Assembly (NCBI GenBank): GCA_013821665.1
Contig: JACDGI010000007.1
Coordinates: forward strand, 3,083 to 39,150
Length of the DNA stretch: 36,068 nucleotides
Source: Anaerolineae bacterium
GTDB lineage: Bacteria > Chloroflexota > Anaerolineae > Aggregatilineales > Phototrophicaceae
Reading direction: 5' to 3'
Part shown: piece by piece, positions 4,173 to 21,005 of the stretch
How positions within the stretch are numbered: position 1 is the first letter of the stretch
How the letters are laid out: every line of letters starts with the position of its first letter
Notes under the pieces: model-generated
Databases searched by the model: none
The model's input: only the letters and a program-made list of their open reading frames with translations
Told to the model about the DNA's origin: nothing
Translations under genes and position numbers: made by a program

Positions 4173-4236
4173 AGTGAAGGAGGAAAGCGCATTCCGCTGT
4201 CAGCTAAAGCAGACAGTCCCCTGCGCGAGAATTTAT
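4173..4236 (+). repeat. 64-bp SD-hairpin-ATG repeat, copy 1
   Basis: This copy is identical by eye to two tandem copies at 34453-34516 and 34517-34580. Order: AAGGAGG (a full-strength Shine-Dalgarno site), AAA, GCGCA, then the hairpin CTGTC-A-GC-TAAA-GC-A-GACAG, then TGCGC, GAGAATTTAT. GCGCA and TGCGC can pair as an outer stem. The final AT of the unit plus the next G make the ATG of the gene at 4235. The hairpin and the GCGCATTCC context resemble right ends of IS200/IS605 (IS1341-type) elements, so I infer a MITE-like derivative. Confidence 0.8.
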
Positions 4237-5527
4237 GGTTGATATGACTGATATGCCTGAAGTCGTAAAACCGAAGAGCAAGTACACCCTGACCGATGTG
4301 CCAGGTGGATTTCTGGTGCAACGTGAAGGTGGCTTAGAGGTCGGGGTTACTTATGGCGACACCTACCTTCATGTGGGCACTCGCAATGTCGGCCTTTACC
4401 AGTATCCCCAGCTCGTCAACGAGGTCGGTGACTGGTTTATGGATCAGATCGTTTCTGGGTACCTGAACAAACGCAAGCGCGAAGAGGGCACGGAAATGAT
4501 CGCCCGCGCCCTATCCAAACGCATGAAGCCGCACTGGGAGCGGATCGTAAAGGAGATCGTGCCGGCCGATGTGAGTGAACTGGCGCGGCTCATGTGGTCA
4601 AGTGTGCATGGTGATGCGGATATTCTCCACCGGCCAGAGCTGTACACCGACGAATACAAGCACGTGCGCGGCGATCTGAAGAAATACCATGCCTGCCGGT
4701 TGATCGTTAAGAAGGAAGAGAATATTTATAGCATCGAAGTGCCATCATTGCTGGAGCGGGCCAAACTGTGGCGCCAGCTCTACGCTGCCAATGTCGTTTC
4801 ACCGAAGGCCTTCAATAAGACGCTCGATGCCATGCCCCGGGCGCTGAGCTTCCATTCGATTGATCAACTCGTTAACGTCCACCTCGATCAGCCGATCACC
4901 AACCGGTTGCATATGATTGCTGTCCTGTGCGGCGCCGAGCACTTCCATTGGTATATGCACGAACCGATTGTGCTGCACGCTACCGGCGACATGATTCGGG
5001 AAGCCTGCACGCGGGTCGAATGGATGCGGCCGCTGAAAACCACTTCCCGCACGCGCGATATTAAGGACTTCATTCAGTTTGTGTTGGATTACCCTGCACC
5101 TTTCAATGGCGATTTCCTTGGCCTGGCACGACGTAGCCAGGAATGGCATGGCGACAATCAGCGGCTGCCGGAAGAGGCCCGGTTGAGTGCAGATGAGAAG
5201 CTGCCGCTGCTGACTCTGGATTATGAAGCGCTGGCCGCGGAAGGTATTGAGCCGCTGCGAACGGTGGGCGATGTCGTCCAGGAAGGCGATACGATGCATC
5301 ACTGTGTGGCCTCCTACGCGCGACGTGCGCATAGGGGGCACTCGTTCCTCTTCCATGTCGAACATGAAAAGGAAAAGGCCACTATTGAGCTGTCGCCGGC
5401 AGGGTTTGTCCAACAAGCCTACGGGCCGCGTAATACCATTAACAAGGCCTGCCAATGGGGCACTGACAAGCTGCGGCAGGCCGCCAAGCATCCGGATCTG
5501 GCCGTTGTTCCGGCGATTCCGTTTTAG
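4235..5527 (+). CDS. PcfJ-like domain protein
   Basis: A 430-residue protein. The C-terminal third carries the PcfJ-like signature: EGDTMHHCVASYARRA, then SFLFHVEHEKEKATIEL, then FVQQAYGPRN, ending in a helical segment. PcfJ-like proteins are common on conjugative plasmids and phages next to ASCH-domain and replication genes, and their biochemical role is not established. The N-terminal 300 residues are not recognised. The start at ATG 4235 is created by the end of the 64-bp repeat. ATG 4244 and ATG 4253 are alternatives a few codons in. The only strong Shine-Dalgarno site is about 50 nt upstream, across the repeat hairpin. An ASCH-domain gene follows directly. Confidence 0.7.
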   Translation: MVDMTDMPEVVKPKSKYTLTDVPGGFLVQREGGLEVGVTYGDTYLHVGTRNVGLYQYPQLVNEVGDWFMDQIVSGYLNKRKREEGTEMIARALSKRMKPHWERIVKEIVPADVSELARLMWSSVHGDADILHRPELYTDEYKHVRGDLKKYHACRLIVKKEENIYSIEVPSLLERAKLWRQLYAANVVSPKAFNKTLDAMPRALSFHSIDQLVNVHLDQPITNRLHMIAVLCGAEHFHWYMHEPIVLHATGDMIREACTRVEWMRPLKTTSRTRDIKDFIQFVLDYPAPFNGDFLGLARRSQEWHGDNQRLPEEARLSADEKLPLLTLDYEALAAEGIEPLRTVGDVVQEGDTMHHCVASYARRAHRGHSFLFHVEHEKEKATIELSPAGFVQQAYGPRNTINKACQWGTDKLRQAAKHPDLAVVPAIPF

Positions 5528-8130: not shown

Positions 8131-8676
8131 TTGGACACCTCTCAAGAAGTCATGCTGCACGATCCGCAGCACCAGCTCTTCGTCGAAAAATACTTCGAGT
8201 TTACATTCAATCAGACGAAGGCAGCCATCGCCGCCGGTTATACCAAGAAATCGGCACGCAACCAGGCCTATCGTTTGATGAAAAATGACGACATTCGGAA
8301 AGCGATTGAGCTGCGTTTATCCGAGTTGGTCATGTCTAAGAATGAGGTGCTGGCACGGTTGGCCGACCACGCGCGTGGTGACATGGGTGACTTTGCCAAT
8401 GTGAAATCGGCTCGAACCCTTGCAAGTCATCCCAACAGTAACCTGATCAAGAAGTTCAAACGTACGATTACCACAACGACGACCGACAAAGATGATGCCA
8501 AAGAAACCACCACTGAAGAGAAGATCGAGCTTGAACTCTACGATGCTCAAGGTGCGATGATCCAGATCGGACGCTATCACAGCCTCTTTACCGACAAAAC
8601 CGATTTGACCACTGCCGGCGATAAATTGCTGGCGCCAATGGTGTTCCTGCCTGCTGTTGAGTCAGATGAGCCATGA
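8131..8676 (+). CDS. terS: Terminase small subunit (Terminase_2 family)
   Basis: The small terminase subunit recognises the packaging site and hands DNA to the large subunit. Residues 10-70 show the Terminase_2 pattern: HQLFVEKYFEFTFNQTKAAIAAGYTKKSA, forming the helix-turn-helix, then RLMKNDDIRKAIE. A middle segment MSKNEVLARLADHARGDMGDF and an acidic end follow, for a total of 181 residues if started at TTG 8131. ATG 8152, seven codons in, is the alternative and still keeps the domain intact. The large terminase follows with an 11-20 nt overlap, as usual. The family call is firm and the start is uncertain. Confidence 0.85.
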   Translation: MDTSQEVMLHDPQHQLFVEKYFEFTFNQTKAAIAAGYTKKSARNQAYRLMKNDDIRKAIELRLSELVMSKNEVLARLADHARGDMGDFANVKSARTLASHPNSNLIKKFKRTITTTTTDKDDAKETTTEEKIELELYDAQGAMIQIGRYHSLFTDKTDLTTAGDKLLAPMVFLPAVESDEP

Positions 8677-11074
8677 AGTTTGGCGACCGCATGCCGGGCA
8701 GCAAACCCGTTATCTAAGCAGCTCATCGTTTGAAGCCCTTTTTGGTGGTGCTGCTGGCCCTGGCAAAACGGACTGCCTGGTCATGGAGGCGCTGCGGCAG
8801 GTCGCAAATCCACGTTATAACGGGATCCTGTTTCGTCGAACCTTCCCACGTCTTGAAGCTGCCGATGGCATGATCGCCCGTTCGGAGCGCTGGTATCCGG
8901 CTTATGGTGGCCGTTTCAATGCCAGTAAATATTTTTGGCGTTTCCCCTCCGGCGCACGCATTTACTTCGGCCATATGCAGCGTGAAGCCGACAAACTCGA
9001 TTATCAGGGTTCGCAGTTTGGCTTTATCGGTTTCGACGAGCTCACCGAATTTGAACAGAGTCAGTATATGTACCTCTTCACCCGCTGTCGTGTTCCAGCC
9101 GGCAGTGGGCTGCGCGCTTACTCTCGATCAGCCACCAATCCAGGCAATATCGGTCATAACTGGGTGAAGCGGCGTTTTATCACCGTCGACATTGTCAACC
9201 GGTTGAAATATTTCGCACTGATTGATGAGGTCGATACGCTGGTTGACCGCAACCACCCGGATGCATTAAGTCGAGCATTTTTCCCCGCTTTACTAGCGGA
9301 TAACCCATCAGCCGATCCGGATTATCGCCGCCGCATCCTGATGAATCCCGATCCTGTTGAACGGGCGCGGTTGCTGGGTGGCGATTGGGACATTACGAGT
9401 TCAGCCGGCCAGATCTATCCCGATTGGTCATTTGAAAACATTAGTGATGAAGCAGACTACCATGCCGGTTGGGAAATTGTTTGGGGTGCAGATGATGGGT
9501 ATGCCGAAGGGCGAGGGCAGGGTACGGAAAGCTATCACCCACGGGTGATCTTGATCGGCCAATACACCCCCATTGGCGGCCTCAACATTTTTTACGAGTA
9601 TTACCGCACCGGTGTTGCTTCTTACCAACCGACGATCCATGAAGCCTTATCACAGCCGGTGGGGCTACCTGACAATTACAAACCAGAAAATTTCAAGCGT
9701 CCGCATGACGCTTATCCGATGCCCGAAATTGCTTACATCGACAGCAGCGCGGCCATGTTTAAAGGCGCGCTGCTTGAACAAGACATTCATGCGATTGGTG
9801 CCACTCATGCCGTTAGCGAAGGCATTAAAAACCTGCGGCGGATGGTGCGAGATGGCAACGGCATGAGACTGCTGAAGATCCATCCGCGCTGCAAGAATCT
9901 GATCCGTGAAATTGCCGGCTACCGTCATGCCGACTCCGCAGCCAGTCAAAATGGTGAAACGAAACCCCTAAAGGTTGACGATCACGGCTGTTTAATTGCC
10001 GGAACACTCATCACGACTGCGCGGGGCTTAATCCCGATTGAACATATATCCGCAGGTGATTTCGTACTGACGCGACAAGGATTTCGAAGGGTTATAGTGT
10101 CGGGCATGACTCATTCGCACGCTGAAGTTTATACCGTTTCCTTATCGAATGGTGCTTTATTGACAGGGACAGGGAATCATCCTGTATATGTCAATAGCAA
10201 GGGTTATATCGCATTGAGAAATCTAGCGGTAAATGATATACTTATTCCATCGAAAATCTATCAAAGAGGTAGCCGATGGACTTCCCTGAGCCAATCGTTG
10301 AGGAAATTGTATTTAACGGCATTAAATTCCGGCGGTATCCGCAATCAAAAAATTGGTCAGATGCCCATTATTTTCGCCCCCATTCGGGATACATCAAAAA
10401 AGGCATCAGGTCACTTCATTGTGAAATCTGGAAAGCAGCCTATGGGGATATTCCAGAAGGTTACGAAATTCATCACGCAGATGGCGATACCGGCAATAAT
10501 AGCCTCGATAACCTCATCTGCCTCTCGAAATCCGACCATCATCAGTTGCACGTTGCAACCTATCCCGAATGGAAAAAGAAGTGGTTACGCGACCGGATTT
10601 CCGTTATCCGTGTTCATGCCATTAACTGGCACAAATCAGCAGAGGGACGTGAATGGCATCGGCAGCAGGGCATACGACTGTGGAAAAACGCCGAGCCTGT
10701 GGGACGTATCTGCAAACAATGTGGCAAAACTTATGAAACGCTGGTTCGTTTCGATAGTGCAGTGTTTTGCTCCAATGCGTGCAGAACCAAATTCCGCTAC
10801 TTATCAGGTGTCGATAACGAAACTCGAACCTGTGAACAATGTGGATCGGCCTTTGAATGCAATAAATATTCCCCTAAACGATTCTGCTCCAATCGGTGCG
10901 CCGCTTTTGGAAGAGGAGCTGCCAAGCGTCGTTAGTATTGATCTCCAACCCCAAAAACAAGCGGTTTACAACTTAACTATTGATGCCGTTCCGGAATATT
11001 TCGCGAATGGCATTTTGGTGCATAACTGCGATGTTGCCCGTTATATGGCGTGGCCGTTGAGGATACCCGATTGA
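8666..11074 (+). CDS. terL: Terminase large subunit with intein in the nuclease motif
   Basis: DNA-packaging motor ATPase and headful nuclease. With ATG 8666 as start (TTG 8657 is three codons upstream) the precursor is 802 residues. Walker A GGAAGPGKT is at residues 27-35 and Walker B FIGFDE ends at E125. A 346-residue intein occupies residues 442-787 (9989-11026). Removing it gives a 456-residue terminase, a normal size. The splice junction falls in the C-terminal nuclease motif (DDHG | CDVARY), where terminases carry the last metal-binding Asp before A-x-R-Y. The precursor should therefore lack a correctly formed nuclease site until splicing. The N-extein nuclease acid around AYIDSSAA is also visible. 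Family and intein are both firm. Confidence 0.93.
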   Translation: MSHEVWRPHAGQQTRYLSSSSFEALFGGAAGPGKTDCLVMEALRQVANPRYNGILFRRTFPRLEAADGMIARSERWYPAYGGRFNASKYFWRFPSGARIYFGHMQREADKLDYQGSQFGFIGFDELTEFEQSQYMYLFTRCRVPAGSGLRAYSRSATNPGNIGHNWVKRRFITVDIVNRLKYFALIDEVDTLVDRNHPDALSRAFFPALLADNPSADPDYRRRILMNPDPVERARLLGGDWDITSSAGQIYPDWSFENISDEADYHAGWEIVWGADDGYAEGRGQGTESYHPRVILIGQYTPIGGLNIFYEYYRTGVASYQPTIHEALSQPVGLPDNYKPENFKRPHDAYPMPEIAYIDSSAAMFKGALLEQDIHAIGATHAVSEGIKNLRRMVRDGNGMRLLKIHPRCKNLIREIAGYRHADSAASQNGETKPLKVDDHGCLIAGTLITTARGLIPIEHISAGDFVLTRQGFRRVIVSGMTHSHAEVYTVSLSNGALLTGTGNHPVYVNSKGYIALRNLAVNDILIPSKIYQRGSRWTSLSQSLRKLYLTALNSGGIRNQKIGQMPIIFAPIRDTSKKASGHFIVKSGKQPMGIFQKVTKFITQMAIPAIIASITSSASRNPTIISCTLQPIPNGKRSGYATGFPLSVFMPLTGTNQQRDVNGIGSRAYDCGKTPSLWDVSANNVAKLMKRWFVSIVQCFAPMRAEPNSATYQVSITKLEPVNNVDRPLNAINIPLNDSAPIGAPLLEEELPSVVSIDLQPQKQAVYNLTIDAVPEYFANGILVHNCDVARYMAWPLRIPD
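9989..11026 (+). mobile_element. Intein in terL with interrupted frame use (346 residues)
   Basis: Protein-splicing element. The first residue is Cys (block A: CLIAGTLITTARGLIPIEH). Block B contains TGTGNHPVYV with the conserved H after T-x-x. The end carries block F/G: VYNLTIDAVPEYFANGILVHN, followed by the +1 Cys of the C-extein. The penultimate His, terminal Asn and flanking Cys residues needed for class 1 splicing are all present. About 94 residues of N-terminal and about 40 of C-terminal splicing domain flank a 220-codon insert, which shows no LAGLIDADG or HNH motif in the intein frame. The insert instead encodes an HNH enzyme in another frame (next entry). Base composition is more AT-rich than the terminase flanks, consistent with transfer. 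Confidence 0.92.
10276..10935 (+). CDS. HNH homing endonuclease nested out of frame inside the intein
   Basis: A complete 219-residue ORF in a different frame from the intein that surrounds it. It has its own ATG and ribosome site (AGAGGT ending 5 nt before ATG) and stops at TAG 10933-10935, exactly where the intein C-terminal splicing domain begins. Residues 30-85 have the phage HNH layout: SLHCEIWKAAYGDIPEGYEIHH (H66, H67), DGDTGNN (N75), LDNLICL (N79), then SDHHQLH. About residues 149-218 hold two repeated cysteine clusters of the form C-x2-C ... F-C-S-N-x-C, likely zinc-binding DNA-contact modules. By analogy it would cut intein-less terL alleles. Internal initiation on the terL mRNA is inferred from the ribosome site. 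Confidence 0.88.
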   Translation: MDFPEPIVEEIVFNGIKFRRYPQSKNWSDAHYFRPHSGYIKKGIRSLHCEIWKAAYGDIPEGYEIHHADGDTGNNSLDNLICLSKSDHHQLHVATYPEWKKKWLRDRISVIRVHAINWHKSAEGREWHRQQGIRLWKNAEPVGRICKQCGKTYETLVRFDSAVFCSNACRTKFRYLSGVDNETRTCEQCGSAFECNKYSPKRFCSNRCAAFGRGAAKRR

Positions 11075-13635
11075 CCGACAATTTACTTGAGCTTGAAGTC
11101 AAAGCAGCCGATCCATCACGCTTGAGCGTGCAGTCCCGTGCGGACGATTCACTATTCGCGCCGACCTCCGATGTCAATGGCAACGGCGGTCTGTTCTGGT
11201 TGACGATGGGGTCGGCACTCGATGAAGAGCCACAATGGAATGCCATTTATCCCAATTGGCGGGACCGGTATTTGCTGAACTTCTCACGCAGCGAGGGTAT
11301 GCTCGCCAGTGCTATTTATAGTATGAAGTCCCGCATCGGCACACTGGATTACACCGTCAATGGGCCGCCGCGTGCCAAGAAATTTGCACAAGACTTGCTG
11401 AAGTCGCCCGGTCTCGGCGAAGGTCTGCGCTCGACTGTTCAAAAGCTATCCGGCGATCTCAATTCCAGCGACAACGGTGCGTTCATTGAGTTATGGCGGC
11501 CCGGTAAACCCGACAGCGATGCCGGAGATCGGCCTGTGCTGGGATTTGCCCATCTCGACAGTCGGCAGTGCTGGCGTTCCTTTGATCCCGAATTCCCTGT
11601 CTGGTACACCCATCCGGTTACCGCCCAGATTCGCAAGCTGCATCGCAGTCGGGTGGTGATGGACTCGAATAATCCGCAGTCGGTGGAACTGGCACGGGGT
11701 ATCGGCTTCTGTGCGGTATCCCGTATCCTGCTCATGTCGCGTACCTTCCGCAGTATGCAGATCTTTCTTAATGAAAAGGTCAGTGGCCGTTTCACCCGTG
11801 CGATTGGCGCAGTCAACGGTCTTACTGCCAGCCAGTTCCGTAAGGCGCTGCAAGCCAACGATGCCGAGAGTGACGCGCGTGGCTTTCAGGTCTATAAAGA
11901 CATCCCGTTCTTCTTCAATCCCAGCGGCCAAGCCAACGATGAGATTAAGATCTTCCTGCAAGATTTGGCCTCGATCCCGGATGGCTTTGTCTTCCGTGAT
12001 GATGCCGATCTCTATGCCTATATACTGGCTTTTGCCTTCGGCGTCGATGCCCGTGAATTCTGGCCCGCCTCTCAGAGCGGTGCGACCAAGGCCGATGCCA
12101 GCGTACAGAACATGAAGGCGCAGGGGCGCGGCATCGGCGATCAGATTCAGACCATCACCGGCATGCTGCGCAAATGTCTTCCGGCAACGGTGGAGTTTGA
12201 ATTCGATTACACCGACGATGATCAGGATTTATTAGCCGCGCAAATCAATCAGGCGCGAGCCACCACCTACGATATGATGGTCAAAAACGGCTCAATCAGT
12301 GCGCAGGAATCACGTGCCATGTCTATCGCCGTCGGCATCCTTGATCAAACCGTTCTCGACACAATGGTTGCACCGGCGACCAGCGACAGCAACCCGGATA
12401 TGCCACCGGCAACGCCAGCGCTGCCGGACGGCAAACCCGACGATGCAGCACAGCCAGTGACAAAGGCCGGTCATACGGGTGTCATGGCCGCTCTATATCT
12501 ACCCAAGATGGCCGCCGATCTGCTGTATGAACAGGTAGCTCCCGGCCTTGTGAAAGCGGGTATTGTTCCAACCCAACCTGATGAGTATCACGTCACACTG
12601 GTATATGCCGGTGATACATCGTCTTATGATGCAGCCCAACAACGTGAACTCCAAAACGGCACAGCCGAAGTAGCCCTCCAATCCCAGCCCTTTAATGCCC
12701 TTTTGGGTGGAGTTGGCCGTTTCACAACCAATGAGGGCGATGGCACCAACGCCCTTTATATTTCCATTGACTCGGCCTATTTGCCTGAGTTCCGACAAAA
12801 ATTATTTGACCGGCTCAAATTTCATTTAGCAATTGAGCAAACTCACGGATTTACTGCACATATCACCATTGGTTACCTCTCCGCTGAGCAAGAAACGCCC
12901 AATATATTTTTGCAAATGTCCTCTGTGCAATTTGATCACCTGTCATTTGCATGGGGCAATACCGTTTGGCGTTATCCGCTCGGCACAGCCATTAGCGCTG
13001 CGAAGAAGTCCGTCAACATGTACCGCAAATCGATGCGTGATGCCACCCGTGGCCTATGGTCAGGCGCACTCACCCTGTATGACTTCCACGAAACGATGGG
13101 GTCAGCTATTCGCCGCCAATTCCCGCTGGCATGGAATGAAGGGGCTGCCAAGTTCGGCATCACAGACACCGAGCGCAGCGACGAGGAAGAGCAGCGCCTC
13201 ACGCTGGAGATCAATACCGAGATCAGCTATATCGCCGGATTTGGACTCGACATTATCGATGGCAGTAAAGCCAACGATGGTGCGCTCCAACCTTTGTTAA
13301 ACCGCGCCGAGCTGTGGGTCAACACCTACGAGCGCATCGTCAGTCTGGCCGGCACAATGGCGGCTGCCGATCAAAAGGGCGAATGGTTTTATGGTGACAC
13401 CAAAGATCATTGTCCGAGCTGCTCAGGGTATGCCGAACGTGTCTACCGCAATTCGACTTGGCGTAAATATCTCGAACCATACGACCTGATGCCCAAAGGC
13501 AAGGGGTTGGCCTGTGGGGGCTGGCTTTGTGATTGCTCGATTAAACCCACTGATAAACCCATCACGCGTGGGCGCCCGCCCATTATCCAAAAAATGCTGC
13601 ATATCCACATCCACCCGGAGGCGCCCAGTGCCTAG
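11071..13635 (+). CDS. Portal / 2H phosphoesterase / MuF-like minor head fusion protein
   Basis: An 854-residue protein if started at TTG 11071, which overlaps the terL stop as TTGA and has GAGG at 11059-11062. GTG 11050 is seven codons earlier. Residues 1-450 read as a phage portal protein (WRDRYLLNFSRSEGML, FGVDAREFWPAS, YDMMVKNGSISAQESR). Residues 470-640 form a LigT/2H phosphoesterase domain: two H-x-T motifs, HVTL at H507 and HITI at H597, spaced as in the family. Residues 650-854 resemble a MuF-type minor head protein ending in a Cys/His cluster (DHCPSCSGYAERVYR, then LACGGWLCDC). Portal-MuF fusions are known. The embedded 2H enzyme is unusual. The parts are seen and the joint function is inferred. 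Confidence 0.82.
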   Translation: MTDNLLELEVKAADPSRLSVQSRADDSLFAPTSDVNGNGGLFWLTMGSALDEEPQWNAIYPNWRDRYLLNFSRSEGMLASAIYSMKSRIGTLDYTVNGPPRAKKFAQDLLKSPGLGEGLRSTVQKLSGDLNSSDNGAFIELWRPGKPDSDAGDRPVLGFAHLDSRQCWRSFDPEFPVWYTHPVTAQIRKLHRSRVVMDSNNPQSVELARGIGFCAVSRILLMSRTFRSMQIFLNEKVSGRFTRAIGAVNGLTASQFRKALQANDAESDARGFQVYKDIPFFFNPSGQANDEIKIFLQDLASIPDGFVFRDDADLYAYILAFAFGVDAREFWPASQSGATKADASVQNMKAQGRGIGDQIQTITGMLRKCLPATVEFEFDYTDDDQDLLAAQINQARATTYDMMVKNGSISAQESRAMSIAVGILDQTVLDTMVAPATSDSNPDMPPATPALPDGKPDDAAQPVTKAGHTGVMAALYLPKMAADLLYEQVAPGLVKAGIVPTQPDEYHVTLVYAGDTSSYDAAQQRELQNGTAEVALQSQPFNALLGGVGRFTTNEGDGTNALYISIDSAYLPEFRQKLFDRLKFHLAIEQTHGFTAHITIGYLSAEQETPNIFLQMSSVQFDHLSFAWGNTVWRYPLGTAISAAKKSVNMYRKSMRDATRGLWSGALTLYDFHETMGSAIRRQFPLAWNEGAAKFGITDTERSDEEEQRLTLEINTEISYIAGFGLDIIDGSKANDGALQPLLNRAELWVNTYERIVSLAGTMAAADQKGEWFYGDTKDHCPSCSGYAERVYRNSTWRKYLEPYDLMPKGKGLACGGWLCDCSIKPTDKPITRGRPPIIQKMLHIHIHPEAPSA

Positions 13636-17432: not shown

Positions 17433-20400
17433 GTGGGCGAGTATCACTTAAATAAAAACTACATCCCTCGCCTAACCCCCGAATATTTTCATGACGTATT
17501 AGATGATAGTGAACATTGGCAAGCGGATGTTTATCGTTTAGCTATAGGGCTGGCTAGAAAAACCAACGTAACGCGTCTGATTGATTTAGGTTGCGGTCGT
17601 GGTAAAAAGCTCACCCCCTACGCAAATGAGTTCGAAATCACCGGCATTGATTATCGGCAAAATGTTGAATATTGCCGTTCTAAATATAATTGGGGCACAT
17701 GGCTAAGTTGCGATTTTGAGAATGACGTTCCCGAAATAGCCACTGAAAACGCTATCGTCATTTGCGCGGATGTGATCGAGCATCTTATCAAACCTGATGC
17801 CCTGATCAAGACGCTGCGCAATGCTGCTGAAACTGCGGCCTATGTGCTGGTCAGCACGCCAGATCGGGAACGACTGTACAGAGATCCGGATCGCAGTCCA
17901 CCGGATAACAAAGCGCACGTCCGCGAATGGACCAACGCCGAACTCGAAGCATGGTTCGTGGATGAAGGGTTACCTGTTCGTTGGGCGGGTTGGACTGTGA
18001 GCTATGAACCACAACAAAACCTGAACACTTCCTTGATTATCCTATCGGCAGCCGACGCGCCGATTGACTTACCGCCCAACTTCCAACCGGCTTCGCACTG
18101 GCGTAAATCCGCCCGCGCGCGTACGTCCACAAGTAAGCCGATGCTCAAAGTCTGGATGACACCAACGCCTTCCGAAGCGGGGCGCGATCTCAGCAACAGT
18201 ATCAACAATATCGTGTGCCGGCTGGATAAACACTTACCGGATTATGGCGTTGAGTTGGTCGAAAACGAGCAGGGTGCCGACCTGCGCGCGGGCCATGCAG
18301 GGCAGGGGAGTCAAGAGCCGATTGATGTCGCGCATTATCACGGCCTTTACCCAACGAGCGACGGCATGGAAAGCAGCGGCTATTTCGCCATCAACAAGAA
18401 TGTCATCCGCAATTTGAAGACAGCGAAAGCGATCACTGCGCCCAGCGAGTGGATTGCCGATGTGCTCCGGCGCGATATGCACGTCAATCCGCACGTCATC
18501 GGTTGGGGTGTGGATACCCAAGAATGGACTCCCAGCCCAAATCCACAAGGCTATGTGCTGTGGAATAAAGCGCGGGTCGATCATGTAAGTGATCCGTCGC
18601 CGATGATTCAACTGGCTGGACGAATGCCTAAGACGCTGTTTCTGTCTACCTTCGGCGAAGGCACACCGAATATCAAAACCGTTGGCCGGCAGCCTTACGA
18701 GGTGATGAAGTCCTATGTGCGCAATGCCGGTGTCTATCTGTCGTTGAACGTGGAAACGTTCGGTATCGGCACATTGGAAGCAATGGCATCAGGCGTGCCG
18801 GTCTTGGGATTTAGATTGCCCAATACGGATCATCTGGTCGAGCACGGCGTGCACGGATTTCTAGCTGAACCCGGCGATATTGATGGACTGGCAGAGGGAT
18901 TAGCCTACTGTCAAAAACACCGTAAGACATTGGGCGAGAACGCGCGTGAAGCCGTGAAAGTTCATTCGTGGGACAAGGTCACCGAACAATTCGCAGCAAT
19001 CTATCGGGCGGTACTTGAACCGCACAAAGGTGCGAAGATCTCAGTGGTCATCCCGTGCCATAACTATGCGGCTTATGTCGGCGAAGCGATTGAAAGCGTC
19101 CTCAATCAGCAGGCAGCATTCAAGTACGAGATCATTGTCGTGCTGGATCGCTGTTCTGATAACAGCGCTGAAGTCGTGGCGCGATATGCCAACCGAGGGG
19201 TGAAAGCGATACTCGCCGATAATGGCAACCTGTCAGCAACGCGCAATCAGGGTATTGAAATGGCTACAGGTGAATTTATCTGCTGCCTCGATGCTGATGA
19301 TCGTATCGGCTCACCTCTTTATTTGCAGACCCTCGCGGATGCACTGGATAAAGATCGTACTTTAGGGATTGCCTTTACCAGCTTGCAGGTCATGAGCGCC
19401 GACGGCGTATTAGGGCATAGCCCCAGTTGGCCGGATGGTTGGGATTTCGATAAGCAGTACGCACGGATTAATCAAATTCCGTCGCTGTGTATGTTCCGCA
19501 AGGAAGCATGGCGACGTGCGGGCGGCTTCCGGCCTTACTACCGGTATGTCGAGGATGCCGAATTCTGGACGACTATGGGCGAAATCGGCTACGGCGCACA
19601 GCATGTCACCCATGAACCGTGGTTTCAATATCGCCTTCATGACAAGAGTGCTTCACAGGTACATCGCACCGGCGAAGTTCCCGAACCGGATTGGCTGGAA
19701 TGGCATCCGGGGGTGAAAGATGGGCAGCGGCCATTTGCAGCGGGAGGCAAAGCGCCTAAAGGTTCGTGGCCGGTGCGCTTCTACGATAAGCCGGAAGTCA
19801 GCATCATTATCCCGGTTGGTAAAGGTCATGAGGGTACTGTTACGGACGCGCTGCACAGTGTCGAAGGGCAGACCTTCCGCATGTGGGAGGCGATTGTCGT
19901 TAATGATAGCGGCAGCGATTTACACCTTGAAAACGGCTTCCCGTGGGCGCGCGAGATCAAAACCAAGGGGTGCATTGGGGCAGGGGCAGCGCGTAATCTG
20001 GGTGCGAAACAGTCGCACGCGCCATTTATTGTATTCCTCGACGCTGACGACATGCTCAAGCCGCGCTTTCTGGAAGCTACACTCAAAGCCTACCGGCAGC
20101 ATGGGCGCTATGCCTATACCGATTGGCTGACCGAAGAGAAGCAGACGAACTTCGTTGTTCATCCGACACCGGAATACAGTTTCCAAGCGGTTTGGGAACG
20201 GCCATCCATTCATCCTGTTACGACCCTGTTACCACGTGCCTGGTTTGATGCGGTTGGTGGGTTTGATGAAGAAATGACCGCTTTCGAAGATGTTGATTTT
20301 TTCATGAAGATGCTCGTACACGGCTTTTGCGGTGTACGGGTACCTGAACCGCTCCTGATCTATCACTTACAGAGCGGCTTTCGAAGAACCGCCGGCGAAG

Positions 20401-21005
20401 CGATTAAGGATCAGTTTAAGGTATTGCTGACCAAACGCTACGGCGGATATATGGAGGGAAGAACCATGTGCAATTGTGTTGAACCGCCGAAGGGCAAGCC
20501 TCGTGTACCACCGTCACCGGAGAATATTGCTGACTATCGCGAATCCTACGGTGAAATGGTCAAAATTCAATTGACGAGTGAAGAGTCGCCGGTAGGGCAG
20601 GTCATGTTTTTTGGCCCTGCCACACGGGTGCCTTACGGTCGTCGGGCGCGCAATGACGTGTTCTATGTTTGGGAAAAGGATGTCACCGAATCCGAAGGCA
20701 TCTTTACCGTCGTGAACGATTACGAGACCGTGCCGGAGCCAACGCTCGTTCCACCTGCGCCTAATGTGATCACCCCACCGGCAGTAATTGAGCCTGAACC
20801 TGAGCCGATTGACTCAGAAGAGGATACCAAGGAAGCACCCGCTGCACAGGATCCTGTTGCGGACGTGGCGAAAGCCGAAGCACCTACCGAGCATGGCACC
20901 GAGGCCGAAGCGCTCGACGAACCGGTTGTCGAAAGTAATGCAAAGAAAATTGCAGAAGCCGCAAAACCTGAAAAGAATGCCAAAACTTCGAAGTCCGGCA
21001 AGTAA
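17433..21005 (+). CDS. Methyltransferase-GT4-GT2-GT2 fusion protein
   Basis: A 1190-residue protein from GTG 17433, directly after the previous stop, with GGAGG at 17418-17422. About residues 30-210 form a class I SAM methyltransferase: LIDLGCGRGKK near residue 48, ICADVIEHL, LVSTPDRERL. About 235-530 form a GT4 glycosyltransferase: TAPSEWIADVL, then ETFGIGTLEAMASGVPVLGF near 440. About 533-770 form a first GT2 domain: ISVVIPCHNYAAYVGEAIES and the D-x-D-type LDADD near 618. About 787-1010 form a second GT2 domain: VSIIIPVGKGHEGT and FLDADD near 868. The last 90 residues are Pro/Glu/Ala/Lys repeats without fold. Position in the head module suggests glycosylation of virion proteins or host surface. 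Target unknown. Confidence 0.88.
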   Translation: MGEYHLNKNYIPRLTPEYFHDVLDDSEHWQADVYRLAIGLARKTNVTRLIDLGCGRGKKLTPYANEFEITGIDYRQNVEYCRSKYNWGTWLSCDFENDVPEIATENAIVICADVIEHLIKPDALIKTLRNAAETAAYVLVSTPDRERLYRDPDRSPPDNKAHVREWTNAELEAWFVDEGLPVRWAGWTVSYEPQQNLNTSLIILSAADAPIDLPPNFQPASHWRKSARARTSTSKPMLKVWMTPTPSEAGRDLSNSINNIVCRLDKHLPDYGVELVENEQGADLRAGHAGQGSQEPIDVAHYHGLYPTSDGMESSGYFAINKNVIRNLKTAKAITAPSEWIADVLRRDMHVNPHVIGWGVDTQEWTPSPNPQGYVLWNKARVDHVSDPSPMIQLAGRMPKTLFLSTFGEGTPNIKTVGRQPYEVMKSYVRNAGVYLSLNVETFGIGTLEAMASGVPVLGFRLPNTDHLVEHGVHGFLAEPGDIDGLAEGLAYCQKHRKTLGENAREAVKVHSWDKVTEQFAAIYRAVLEPHKGAKISVVIPCHNYAAYVGEAIESVLNQQAAFKYEIIVVLDRCSDNSAEVVARYANRGVKAILADNGNLSATRNQGIEMATGEFICCLDADDRIGSPLYLQTLADALDKDRTLGIAFTSLQVMSADGVLGHSPSWPDGWDFDKQYARINQIPSLCMFRKEAWRRAGGFRPYYRYVEDAEFWTTMGEIGYGAQHVTHEPWFQYRLHDKSASQVHRTGEVPEPDWLEWHPGVKDGQRPFAAGGKAPKGSWPVRFYDKPEVSIIIPVGKGHEGTVTDALHSVEGQTFRMWEAIVVNDSGSDLHLENGFPWAREIKTKGCIGAGAARNLGAKQSHAPFIVFLDADDMLKPRFLEATLKAYRQHGRYAYTDWLTEEKQTNFVVHPTPEYSFQAVWERPSIHPVTTLLPRAWFDAVGGFDEEMTAFEDVDFFMKMLVHGFCGVRVPEPLLIYHLQSGFRRTAGEAIKDQFKVLLTKRYGGYMEGRTMCNCVEPPKGKPRVPPSPENIADYRESYGEMVKIQLTSEESPVGQVMFFGPATRVPYGRRARNDVFYVWEKDVTESEGIFTVVNDYETVPEPTLVPPAPNVITPPAVIEPEPEPIDSEEDTKEAPAAQDPVADVAKAEAPTEHGTEAEALDEPVVESNAKKIAEAAKPEKNAKTSKSGK

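Follow-up and report, generated by a model that had tools for sequence, protein, structure and literature searches.

An HNH endonuclease gene overlaps, out of frame, the intein of a terminase large subunit gene, a layout that recurs in related inserts

We analyzed a stretch of 36,068 nt from the forward strand of contig JACDGI010000007.1 of an Anaerolineae bacterium (the window); all coordinates are positions within it. A sequence-only reading had described a terminase large subunit gene (terL) interrupted by an intein, with splicing blocks in the terL frame that begin with Cys and end with His-Asn-Cys, and with a complete HNH gene of 219 codons, equipped with its own AGAGGT site, ATG, and TAG, in a different frame between them. 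The blocks are borne out by the sequence as well as by Pfam and TIGR profiles, and the coordinates and frame of the HNH gene by the sequence and Pfam. The terL open reading frame (8657-11074, plus strand) encodes 805 amino acids without an internal stop. Codon position 1 of the HNH gene is codon position 3 of terL, that is, the two are read in separate frames, with HNH in the -1 frame relative to that of the intein, and the HNH frame is open from position 10273 (Table 1). Only the statement that the HNH stop codon falls exactly at the start of the C-terminal splicing domain was too strong: the TAG (10933-10935) is near this point, the profile match beginning at 10919.

Table 1. Features of the terL locus
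Feature	Position	Strand	Basis
TerL N-extein, terminase large subunit, 444 aa	8657..9988	+	Pfam Terminase_6N 6e-13; PHROG terminase large subunit 8.6e-53
Intein, 346 aa, terL frame, Cys1 ... His-Asn	9989..11026	+	Pfam, TIGR01443, invariant residues, AF2 Hint fold
N-terminal splicing domain, blocks A and B (Cys1, T61xxH64)	9989..10246	+	HMM match, alignment A6, pLDDT
AGAGGT, Shine-Dalgarno-like, 5 nt upstream of the HNH ATG	10265..10270	+	sequence
TAG in the HNH frame, one codon upstream of the HNH ATG, shuts the frame upstream	10270..10272	+	sequence
Intein frame where HNH overlaps it; spacer of low confidence	10273..10918	+	AF2 pLDDT; substitution pattern in relatives
Out-of-frame HNH endonuclease gene, 219 aa, ATG/TAG; HNH_3 and two zinc-ribbon-like Cys modules	10276..10935	+	
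C-terminal splicing domain, blocks F and G (...EYFANGILVHN)	10919..11026	+	HMM match, TIGR01443, pLDDT
TerL C-extein CDVARYMAWPLRIPD and stop	11027..11074	+	sequence

The insert is a class 1 Hint intein: it starts with Cys1 at position 9989, contains the block-B TxxH motif, ends with ILVHN at 11026 followed by Cys+1 (Cys, Ser, or Thr being accepted here), and is modeled with a Hint fold. The Pfam profiles Intein_splicing (1.3e-9) and Hint_2 (1.1e-6) match the terL frame. TIGR01443 (intein_Cterm) scored above its cut-off (1e-4) on the intein and TIGR01445 (intein_Nterm) below (0.011). C1, T61, H64, and N346 are invariant across alignment A5, which comprises 45 rows picked from 63, rows with unclear ends (e.g., L086, L106, L107, and L138) being excluded. 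In the AF2 model, the Hint fold is interrupted by a low-confidence spacer of ∼210 residues: block-mean pLDDT is 91-98 for residues 1-90 and 96-98 from residue 311, while 178 of the 346 residues are below 50 and 39, including a weak helix (153-178), are at 50-70. A Foldseek search with this model returned 30 chains at E <= 0.001, among them the gp41-1 intein at 5.3e-7. That the intein splices autocatalytically is inferred from the chemistry of the family. The insertion point lies in the DH/CDxxRY motif of TerL (the slash marks the junction), and many junctions of relatives show a similar motif.

The HNH frame of the window matches Pfam HNH_3 (1.1e-15). The conserved His and Asn of this domain are present as invariant columns in the HNH alignment A4 (51 chosen rows), as are eight Cys. 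AF2 models the protein with a pLDDT of 96.5. Among PDB sequences, the homing enzyme I-HmuI matches it best, though weakly (E 0.0053), and Foldseek did not find any match of the model in the PDB at E 0.001.

The nested layout reaches far beyond the window, with more than 100 related inserts. Searches keyed to the HNH protein gave 118 scored loci, 78 of them with the HNH gene nested out of frame. A search keyed to the N-terminal intein domain, for which 8 closer N domains were used instead of a 29-sequence alignment that was too diverse, gave 80 loci (67 nested and 13 mini-inteins). After pooling, 107 non-redundant nested loci including the window remained, all at one frame offset. Homologues with an in-frame HNH had been named as an observation that would refute the proposal, but not a single one was present among the 118 HNH-keyed and 80 N-domain-keyed scored loci. 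The placement of the HNH gene out of frame inside a terL intein is therefore well supported by homologues. The layout occurs in TJE1, Highwayman, LS06-2018-MD07, the gut contig MT838676, and a Halobacterium plasmid, and in genomes of bacteria and of one archaeon that come from isolates or were assembled from metagenomes. Since it recurs in records labeled as complete genomes or plasmids and in isolate genomes, a sequencing frameshift is ruled out. Eleven further relatives, CL2 included, apparently have a split-intein layout with this HNH family between the halves. The gene tables of TJE1, Highwayman, LS06, and the Halobacterium plasmid (the latter table being incomplete) list only the long open reading frame and miss the HNH gene.

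The open intein frame had been assigned a chance figure under a uniform model. When synonymous codons were redrawn at the local base composition over the 211 HMM-matched codons, leaving the HNH protein unchanged, none of 2000 sequences was free of stops (mean 5.4), but 4.2% stayed free of them when the codons of the gene itself were permuted. Under this stricter control the window alone is therefore only moderately significant, and the question is settled by the relatives. Stops in the intein frame number zero in the nested loci versus a mean of 5.5 in 12 split loci and 5.7 in 18 intein-less HNH genes (1-12 each in the corresponding frame); synonymous resampling of the nested HNH genes predicts 5.7. 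The nested class is defined by its open frame, and zero is thus built into the definition, so that the evidence lies in the contrast with split, intein-less, and resampled genes. At this offset, intein-frame stops arise only from HNH codons NTA and NTG before certain bases. Nearly all of them are synonymously avoidable, so that the locus can preserve both readings. Nested HNH genes often use NTG and NTA codons, other than in contexts where a stop would form, which rules out plain codon bias behind the openness. That selection for splicing keeps the second frame free of stops is accordingly well supported by the homologues.

Comparisons of close pairs show that the HNH protein is under purifying selection in the relatives. 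Substitutions cluster at HNH third positions (3/10/35 by codon position for L058/L059), and observed-to-expected ratios are 0.40 for HNH-nonsynonymous and 1.36 for intein-nonsynonymous changes. Against this, the weakest pair (L061/L068) gave 0.84 for HNH-nonsynonymous and 1.24 for intein-synonymous changes. The substitutions between close pairs gave no sign of purifying selection on the overlapped intein residues; within the overlap, selection on the intein frame apparently acts only on its staying open. The nested layout as such is apparently maintained by selection.

Support for homing by the HNH protein is only indirect and consists of sporadic presence and decoupling from TerL; cleavage is inferred. 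The pair L091/L124 shares 68% identity in HNH and 64% in the intein N domain, but only 30% in TerL. Intein-less TerL homologues exist, and two viral loci (L004 and L010) align 6-7 residues beyond the joined junction in one intein-less open reading frame at 28-29% identity, providing a host homologue with an intact site. The other 14 viral alignments and L021 stop short of the joined junction, and the longest open reading frame of L022 had no match in the empty-site alignment. Mini-inteins without HNH are interspersed with nested ones in a weakly resolved tree; both trees are weakly resolved, and gain versus loss of HNH is not polarized.

Separate translation of the HNH protein by internal initiation is favored by start codons and Shine-Dalgarno-like sites in the relatives, although translation itself remains an inference. 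An ATG lies close to the HNH start in 94 of the 107 nested loci versus 36% of random windows, and a Shine-Dalgarno-like match of at least 4 nt accompanies 53 of 105, against 18% of the 2100 control ATGs. Such a site is missing from half of the nested loci, and two of the 107 have no start codon at all in the stretch searched. These data also bear on the idea that ribosomes enter the HNH frame from that of terL by programmed -1 frameshifting, which would yield a TerL-IntN-HNH fusion and no free nuclease. HNH does sit in the -1 frame of the intein frame, and an X_XXY_YYZ heptamer occurs in the small possible region at 6 of 107 loci, but the background rate predicts 2.9. The conserved HNH start is preceded by an HNH-frame stop at a median distance of 30 nt (one codon before the ATG in the window). 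Together with the frequent ATG, this leaves frameshifting a very improbable source of the protein.

Large inteins usually carry their endonuclease in frame, and the locus might be taken for such an intein, decaying after frameshifts had split it, or for chance openness; one relative (L126) indeed has a frame break in its N domain. Given the identical offset in 107 non-redundant loci, the lack of any in-frame homologue among the 118 and 80 scored, and the purifying selection on the HNH frame, this account is hardly tenable. We attach just as little weight to an RNA intron with an intron-encoded HNH and merely incidental intein-like peptides. Group I introns are well known to harbor HNH genes, as stated in one report (PMC11855218), but the Hint catalytic residues and fold are conserved in the long frame, full-length openness in the host frame would be needless, and no Rfam family reached the gathering threshold in the window, the nested L035 and L037, or five intein-less loci. 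Less easily dismissed, though still unlikely, is an HNH protein kept for the benefit of the phage as a packaging partner of TerL rather than as a homing nuclease. Relatives adjoin terminase genes in many phages, packaging-aiding HNH proteins are mentioned in the portions available of PMC11855218, PMC12613952, and PMC4422536, and the last of these suggests a functional association of its overlapping HNH with the terminase. The sporadic presence with interspersed HNH-less mini-inteins, the decoupling of element from TerL similarity in some pairs, and the weak match to I-HmuI argue against a packaging partner.

In the best explanation, to which we assign a probability of roughly 0.8, the homing endonuclease of this terL intein is encoded by an overlapping gene instead of forming one of the intein's domains; splicing, translation of HNH, and cleavage remain inferences, with no expression, splicing, or cleavage data. 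The long frame would give one precursor consisting of TerL-N, Hint-N, the unstructured spacer of ∼210 residues, Hint-C, and TerL-C, from which the Hint domain, judged by its family's chemistry, would excise itself and ligate TerL. Ribosomes would also start at the HNH ATG within the intein, as suggested by start sites and selection, and release a free HNH protein of 219 amino acids. This may then cut intein-less terL alleles, and repair would copy the whole element in.

The usual view of an intein is that of one chain whose nuclease and splicing domains evolve in concert. A nuclease residing as a second gene over a spacer that the need for splicing keeps free of stops would allow independent expression, gain, or loss, and such a gene is easily overlooked in annotation. 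The ∼100 natural overlapping gene pairs, with only one frame's protein apparently constrained, offer a clean system for studying overlap evolution. A broader proposal, somewhat short of an even bet, is that inteins with out-of-frame endonucleases form an old, widespread TerL class in bacterial and archaeal viruses, with the permitted offset set by codon geometry, and connect mini-inteins, free-standing homing endonucleases, and natural split inteins in evolution. If so, a nested intein that acquired a stop in the overlapped frame would become three genes, TerL-IntN, HNH, and IntC-TerL-C. This is a concrete way in which split inteins could originate.

The layout itself is already mentioned in passing for brucellaphages in a 2015 paper (PMC4422536), the accessible part of which refers to an HNH, putatively encoded by an intein, that lies in terL but not in its frame: as in the window, an HNH gene lies over the middle of terL and is ascribed to an intein. 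That account, as far as available, takes up a few sentences on one phage group and offers neither splicing motifs nor frame statistics, nor does it give relatives or a model of expression. What appears to be new is the conserved class, together with its selection and its split-intein relatives, but a fuller prior description (Gorbalenya 1998, "Non-canonical inteins"; Dassa 2009; the Gosselin 2025 preprint on non-canonical actinobacteriophage intein architecture) is not excluded. For the out-of-frame HNH of ShiLan, no splicing domain of an intein was found by the authors, in whose view the insert stays in the protein; in the window, HNH is enclosed by a complete Hint domain and TerL is the host protein, so that the locus is not of the ShiLan type. 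An insertion of that type is noted for phage Applejack in the part of PMC12613952 available. Canonical bifunctional inteins, such as the mycobacteriophage TerL inteins (PMC5050341) and the CL131 dCTP deaminase intein with HNH_3 (PMC6293099), resemble the window in having a Hint domain with an endonuclease between the N and C blocks and, going by the accessible text of these reports, have been shown experimentally to splice. Their nuclease is part of the intein chain, whereas in the window it is a separate overlapping gene, and the requirement for one chain and one frame is not met. Moreover, the TerL inteins of mycobacteriophages are located in the ATPase domain (PMC5050341, as far as accessible), the window intein in the DH..DxxRY motif near the C-terminus.

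Free-standing HNH genes beside phage terminase genes (e.g., the BP10, EauM-23, and PAE1 loci) encode the same HNH family, the window protein being 37% identical to that of BP10 and 39% to that of EauM-23, but, unlike the window HNH, lie outside inteins. In the "fractured genes" reportedly described by Dassa et al. in 2009, split inteins have a free-standing endonuclease gene between their halves. There, as in the window, the endonuclease has a gene to itself, placed between Hint-N and Hint-C. The fractured genes are split, whereas in the window, whose open terL frame does not qualify as a split intein, and in the 106 other loci the intein frame runs open and unbroken across the whole HNH gene.

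The terminase large subunit gene (terL) of the window contains an intein, and an HNH gene lies inside it in another frame (table). The terL frame matches, in order, terminase and then Intein_splicing and Hint models; terL codon position 3 is HNH position 1. This bears out the sequence-only reading of an out-of-frame HNH gene within a terL intein. Both residues and fold identify the insert as an intein, and its predicted structure matches gp41-1 and other inteins; splicing itself is inferred. It is not a canonical bifunctional intein, because the nuclease is encoded in another frame. The large ORF after terL gave no Pfam match at E 1 beyond its 2H phosphoesterase domain.

Features of the window and of individual related loci (L-numbers)
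Feature	Coordinates	Strand	Remark
terL ORF	8657-11074	+	stop-free throughout
Intein, 346 aa	Cys1 at 9989, ...GILVHN up to 11026		Cys+1 directly after
HNH ORF	10276-10935	+	inside terL ORF, other frame; HNH_3 match 1.1e-15
PcfJ-like protein	4235-5527		terminase genes downstream of its gene
861-aa ORF	11050-13635		directly after terL, 25-nt overlap (mechanical call); embedded 2H phosphoesterase (LigT / 2'-5' RNA ligase) domain
1190-aa ORF	17433-21005		among phage genes; methyltransferase, one GT1 and two GT2 glycosyltransferase stretches
L052	227-2701		in-frame LAGLIDADG domains upstream of nested HNH intein, same ORF
L117	509-2713		as L052
L054	605-2728		second Intein_splicing match upstream of nested HNH intein, same ORF
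L106	230-2740		as L054
L133	2571-3546		HNH relative immediately downstream of some 130 N-terminal aa of a TerL-like ORF

This nested layout is found elsewhere. In tblastn searches, the HNH and intein queries landed at shared sites in Tetrasphaera phage TJE1, gut contig MT838676, Acinetobacter phage Highwayman and Rhodobacteraceae phage LS06. All four have a terL frame that stays open across the entire HNH gene, with N- and C-terminal splicing motifs present, and a Halobacterium plasmid also shows the layout. Scans with the HNH alignment gave viral loci (the best 80 of 535 relatives) and 37 genome loci. From all HNH- and TerL-keyed searches, we classified the 118 loci with a plus-strand HNH HMM score > 60, excluding those that scored lower as well as L001 and L020, both copies of the window. 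Within this set, 78 loci are nested with one offset between the frames (67 after dereplication at 90%), 12 have the N and C parts on different ORFs, 23 have no detected intein and 5 are partial. A second scan, keyed to the intein N domain, was blind to the HNH, yet it was seeded from nested inteins and is therefore confined to this intein family. Its best 80 of 497 loci comprise 67 nested cases, again with identical offset, and 13 mini-inteins lacking the HNH. Homologues with the HNH in frame, which would have refuted the sequence-only reading, were found neither among the 118 loci (viral part from the best 80 of 535) nor among these 80 of 497, where other long inserts were absent as well. Pooling both searches yields at least 145 nested entries, some being the same contig found twice, and at least 107 non-redundant ones.

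The N-terminal extein could be scanned in 66 cases (one of 67 was too short). It matched the phrog_2 terminase large subunit in 58 and Pfam Terminase_3 in 45; two additionally matched a primase family, and the host gene was not resolved as terL for every locus. Four nested loci (L052, L117, L054, L106) suggest two inteins per polypeptide.

Is the intein frame open by chance? Since openness defines the nested class, the evidence is the contrast with other genes, not the zero itself. Nested genes would be expected to contain 5.7 intein-frame stops if synonymous codons are resampled with the HNH protein fixed, and 2.1 if each gene's own codons are permuted; none were observed. Taken by itself, the window yields no stop-free sequence in 2000 synonymous resamples, but 4.2% of own-codon permutations are stop-free. 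The 12 split HNH genes average 5.5 stops, and 18 intein-less ones 5.7 in the corresponding frame (4 of 22 were too short and uncounted). The only gene without a contiguous intein and with zero stops is L126, from a Prevotellaceae MAG: its HNH is nested in an open intein frame, but its N splicing domain is read in another one; either the intein has lost its frame or the assembly contains an error. Nested genes hold 353 NTG codons other than ATG (followed by C, G or T), 146 ATG and 299 NTA (followed by C or T), and none of them stands in a stop-forming context; for the control genes, split or intein-less, the share in such contexts is 33/165, 25/72 and 117/212, respectively. About 19 stops per gene are both observed and expected in the other alternate frame; therefore, in practice synonymous choice can keep only a single offset open. 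The proposal that selection keeps the second frame stop-free is thus supported by both resampling and controls.

Substitutions were counted in 14 nested pairs with at least 8 differences each, excluding 9 near-identical pairs; the pairs are not independent and some rows are near-duplicates. Changes silent in the HNH but altering the intein were in excess (919 observed, 467 expected), whereas the reverse class (391 versus 511) and changes altering both (696 versus 1051) were depleted; 34 were silent in both frames (11 expected). Changes in L058/L059 fall 3, 10 and 35 times on HNH codon positions 1, 2 and 3, and the weakest pair, L061/L068, has HNH-nonsynonymous changes at 0.84 of expectation. 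From this pattern, the HNH appears to be a maintained protein, while the overlapped intein residues give no sign of constraint except staying open. AlphaFold2 confidence agrees: mean pLDDT is 96.5 for the window HNH, and in the intein it is high for residues 1-90 and 311-346 but mostly < 70 in the overlapped part (178 residues < 50, one weak helix). The HNH model had no significant match among PDB folds, and its profile picks I-HmuI only weakly (E 0.0053).

The HNH could be made by internal initiation, as the sequence-only reading proposed, or by frameshifting. Start codons, chosen blind to SD sequences, were ATG in 94 of the 107 non-redundant nested loci, GTG or TTG in 11 and missing in 2; for comparison, 36% of length-matched random windows contain an ATG. 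SD-like matches of 4 nt or longer precede 53 of 105 starts, against 18% of 2100 control ATGs. Upstream, a stop closes the HNH frame at a median distance of 30 nt from the conserved start, and slippery heptamers occur in 6 of 107 loci (2.9 expected). In the window, 5 nt separate AGAGGT from the ATG, and a TAG closes the HNH frame one codon upstream of this start. These features favour internal initiation over frameshifting, although half of the nested loci lack a recognisable SD; translation of the HNH is inferred.

The element may be decoupled from its host gene in some pairs, judging from sequence comparison: L091 and L124 share 68% identity in the HNH and 64% in the intein N domain but only 30% in TerL, and for L050 and L061 the values are 59% and 52%, their TerL sequences giving no match. 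HNH and TerL similarity are still correlated over all 5235 pairs (Spearman 0.33). Cleavage and homing remain inferences. TerL-like ORFs occur in 16 of 20 examined intein-less loci (23 in total), and L004 and L010 provide intein-less TerLs that align across the insertion site. In L133, where no intein was detected, terL looks as if interrupted. In a weakly resolved tree that rests on only 87 columns, mini-inteins turn up at several positions among nested inteins (10 changes, of which starred branches force at least 3). In the HNH tree, nested, split and intein-less genes cluster, yet do not form separate clades (12 changes of the nested state versus 28 when shuffled, at least 3 forced). Excluding L126, 11 relatives (L040, L083, L085, L098, L110, L128, L129, L130, L135, L137, L139) are apparently natural split TerL inteins, with separate ORFs for TerL-IntN, HNH and IntC-TerL-C. 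Here the HNH gene lies between the halves, and IntC is a short ORF overlapping its end; the annotation of Lactobacillus phage CL2 (L040) lacks the IntC-TerL-C gene. The scattered mini-inteins, the mixed HNH groups and the split relatives suggest that the four states (nested, mini, split and free) may interconvert, the direction not being proven.

The layout itself is not new. A 2015 paper mentions in passing that brucellaphage terL harbours an out-of-frame HNH gene, putatively encoded by an intein, and reports no group I or II intron signature (PMC4422536); the window shares this layout, but a common family is not established. Mycobacteriophage TerL inteins are located in the ATPase domain (PMC5050341). 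The closest case examined at length, ShiLan, likewise encodes its HNH in the host gene's third frame but, unlike the window, has no splicing domain (PMC11855218). Further prior description is possible; what is new relative to these systems is that the class is conserved and keeps a single offset, is under selection in both readings, and has mini and split relatives.
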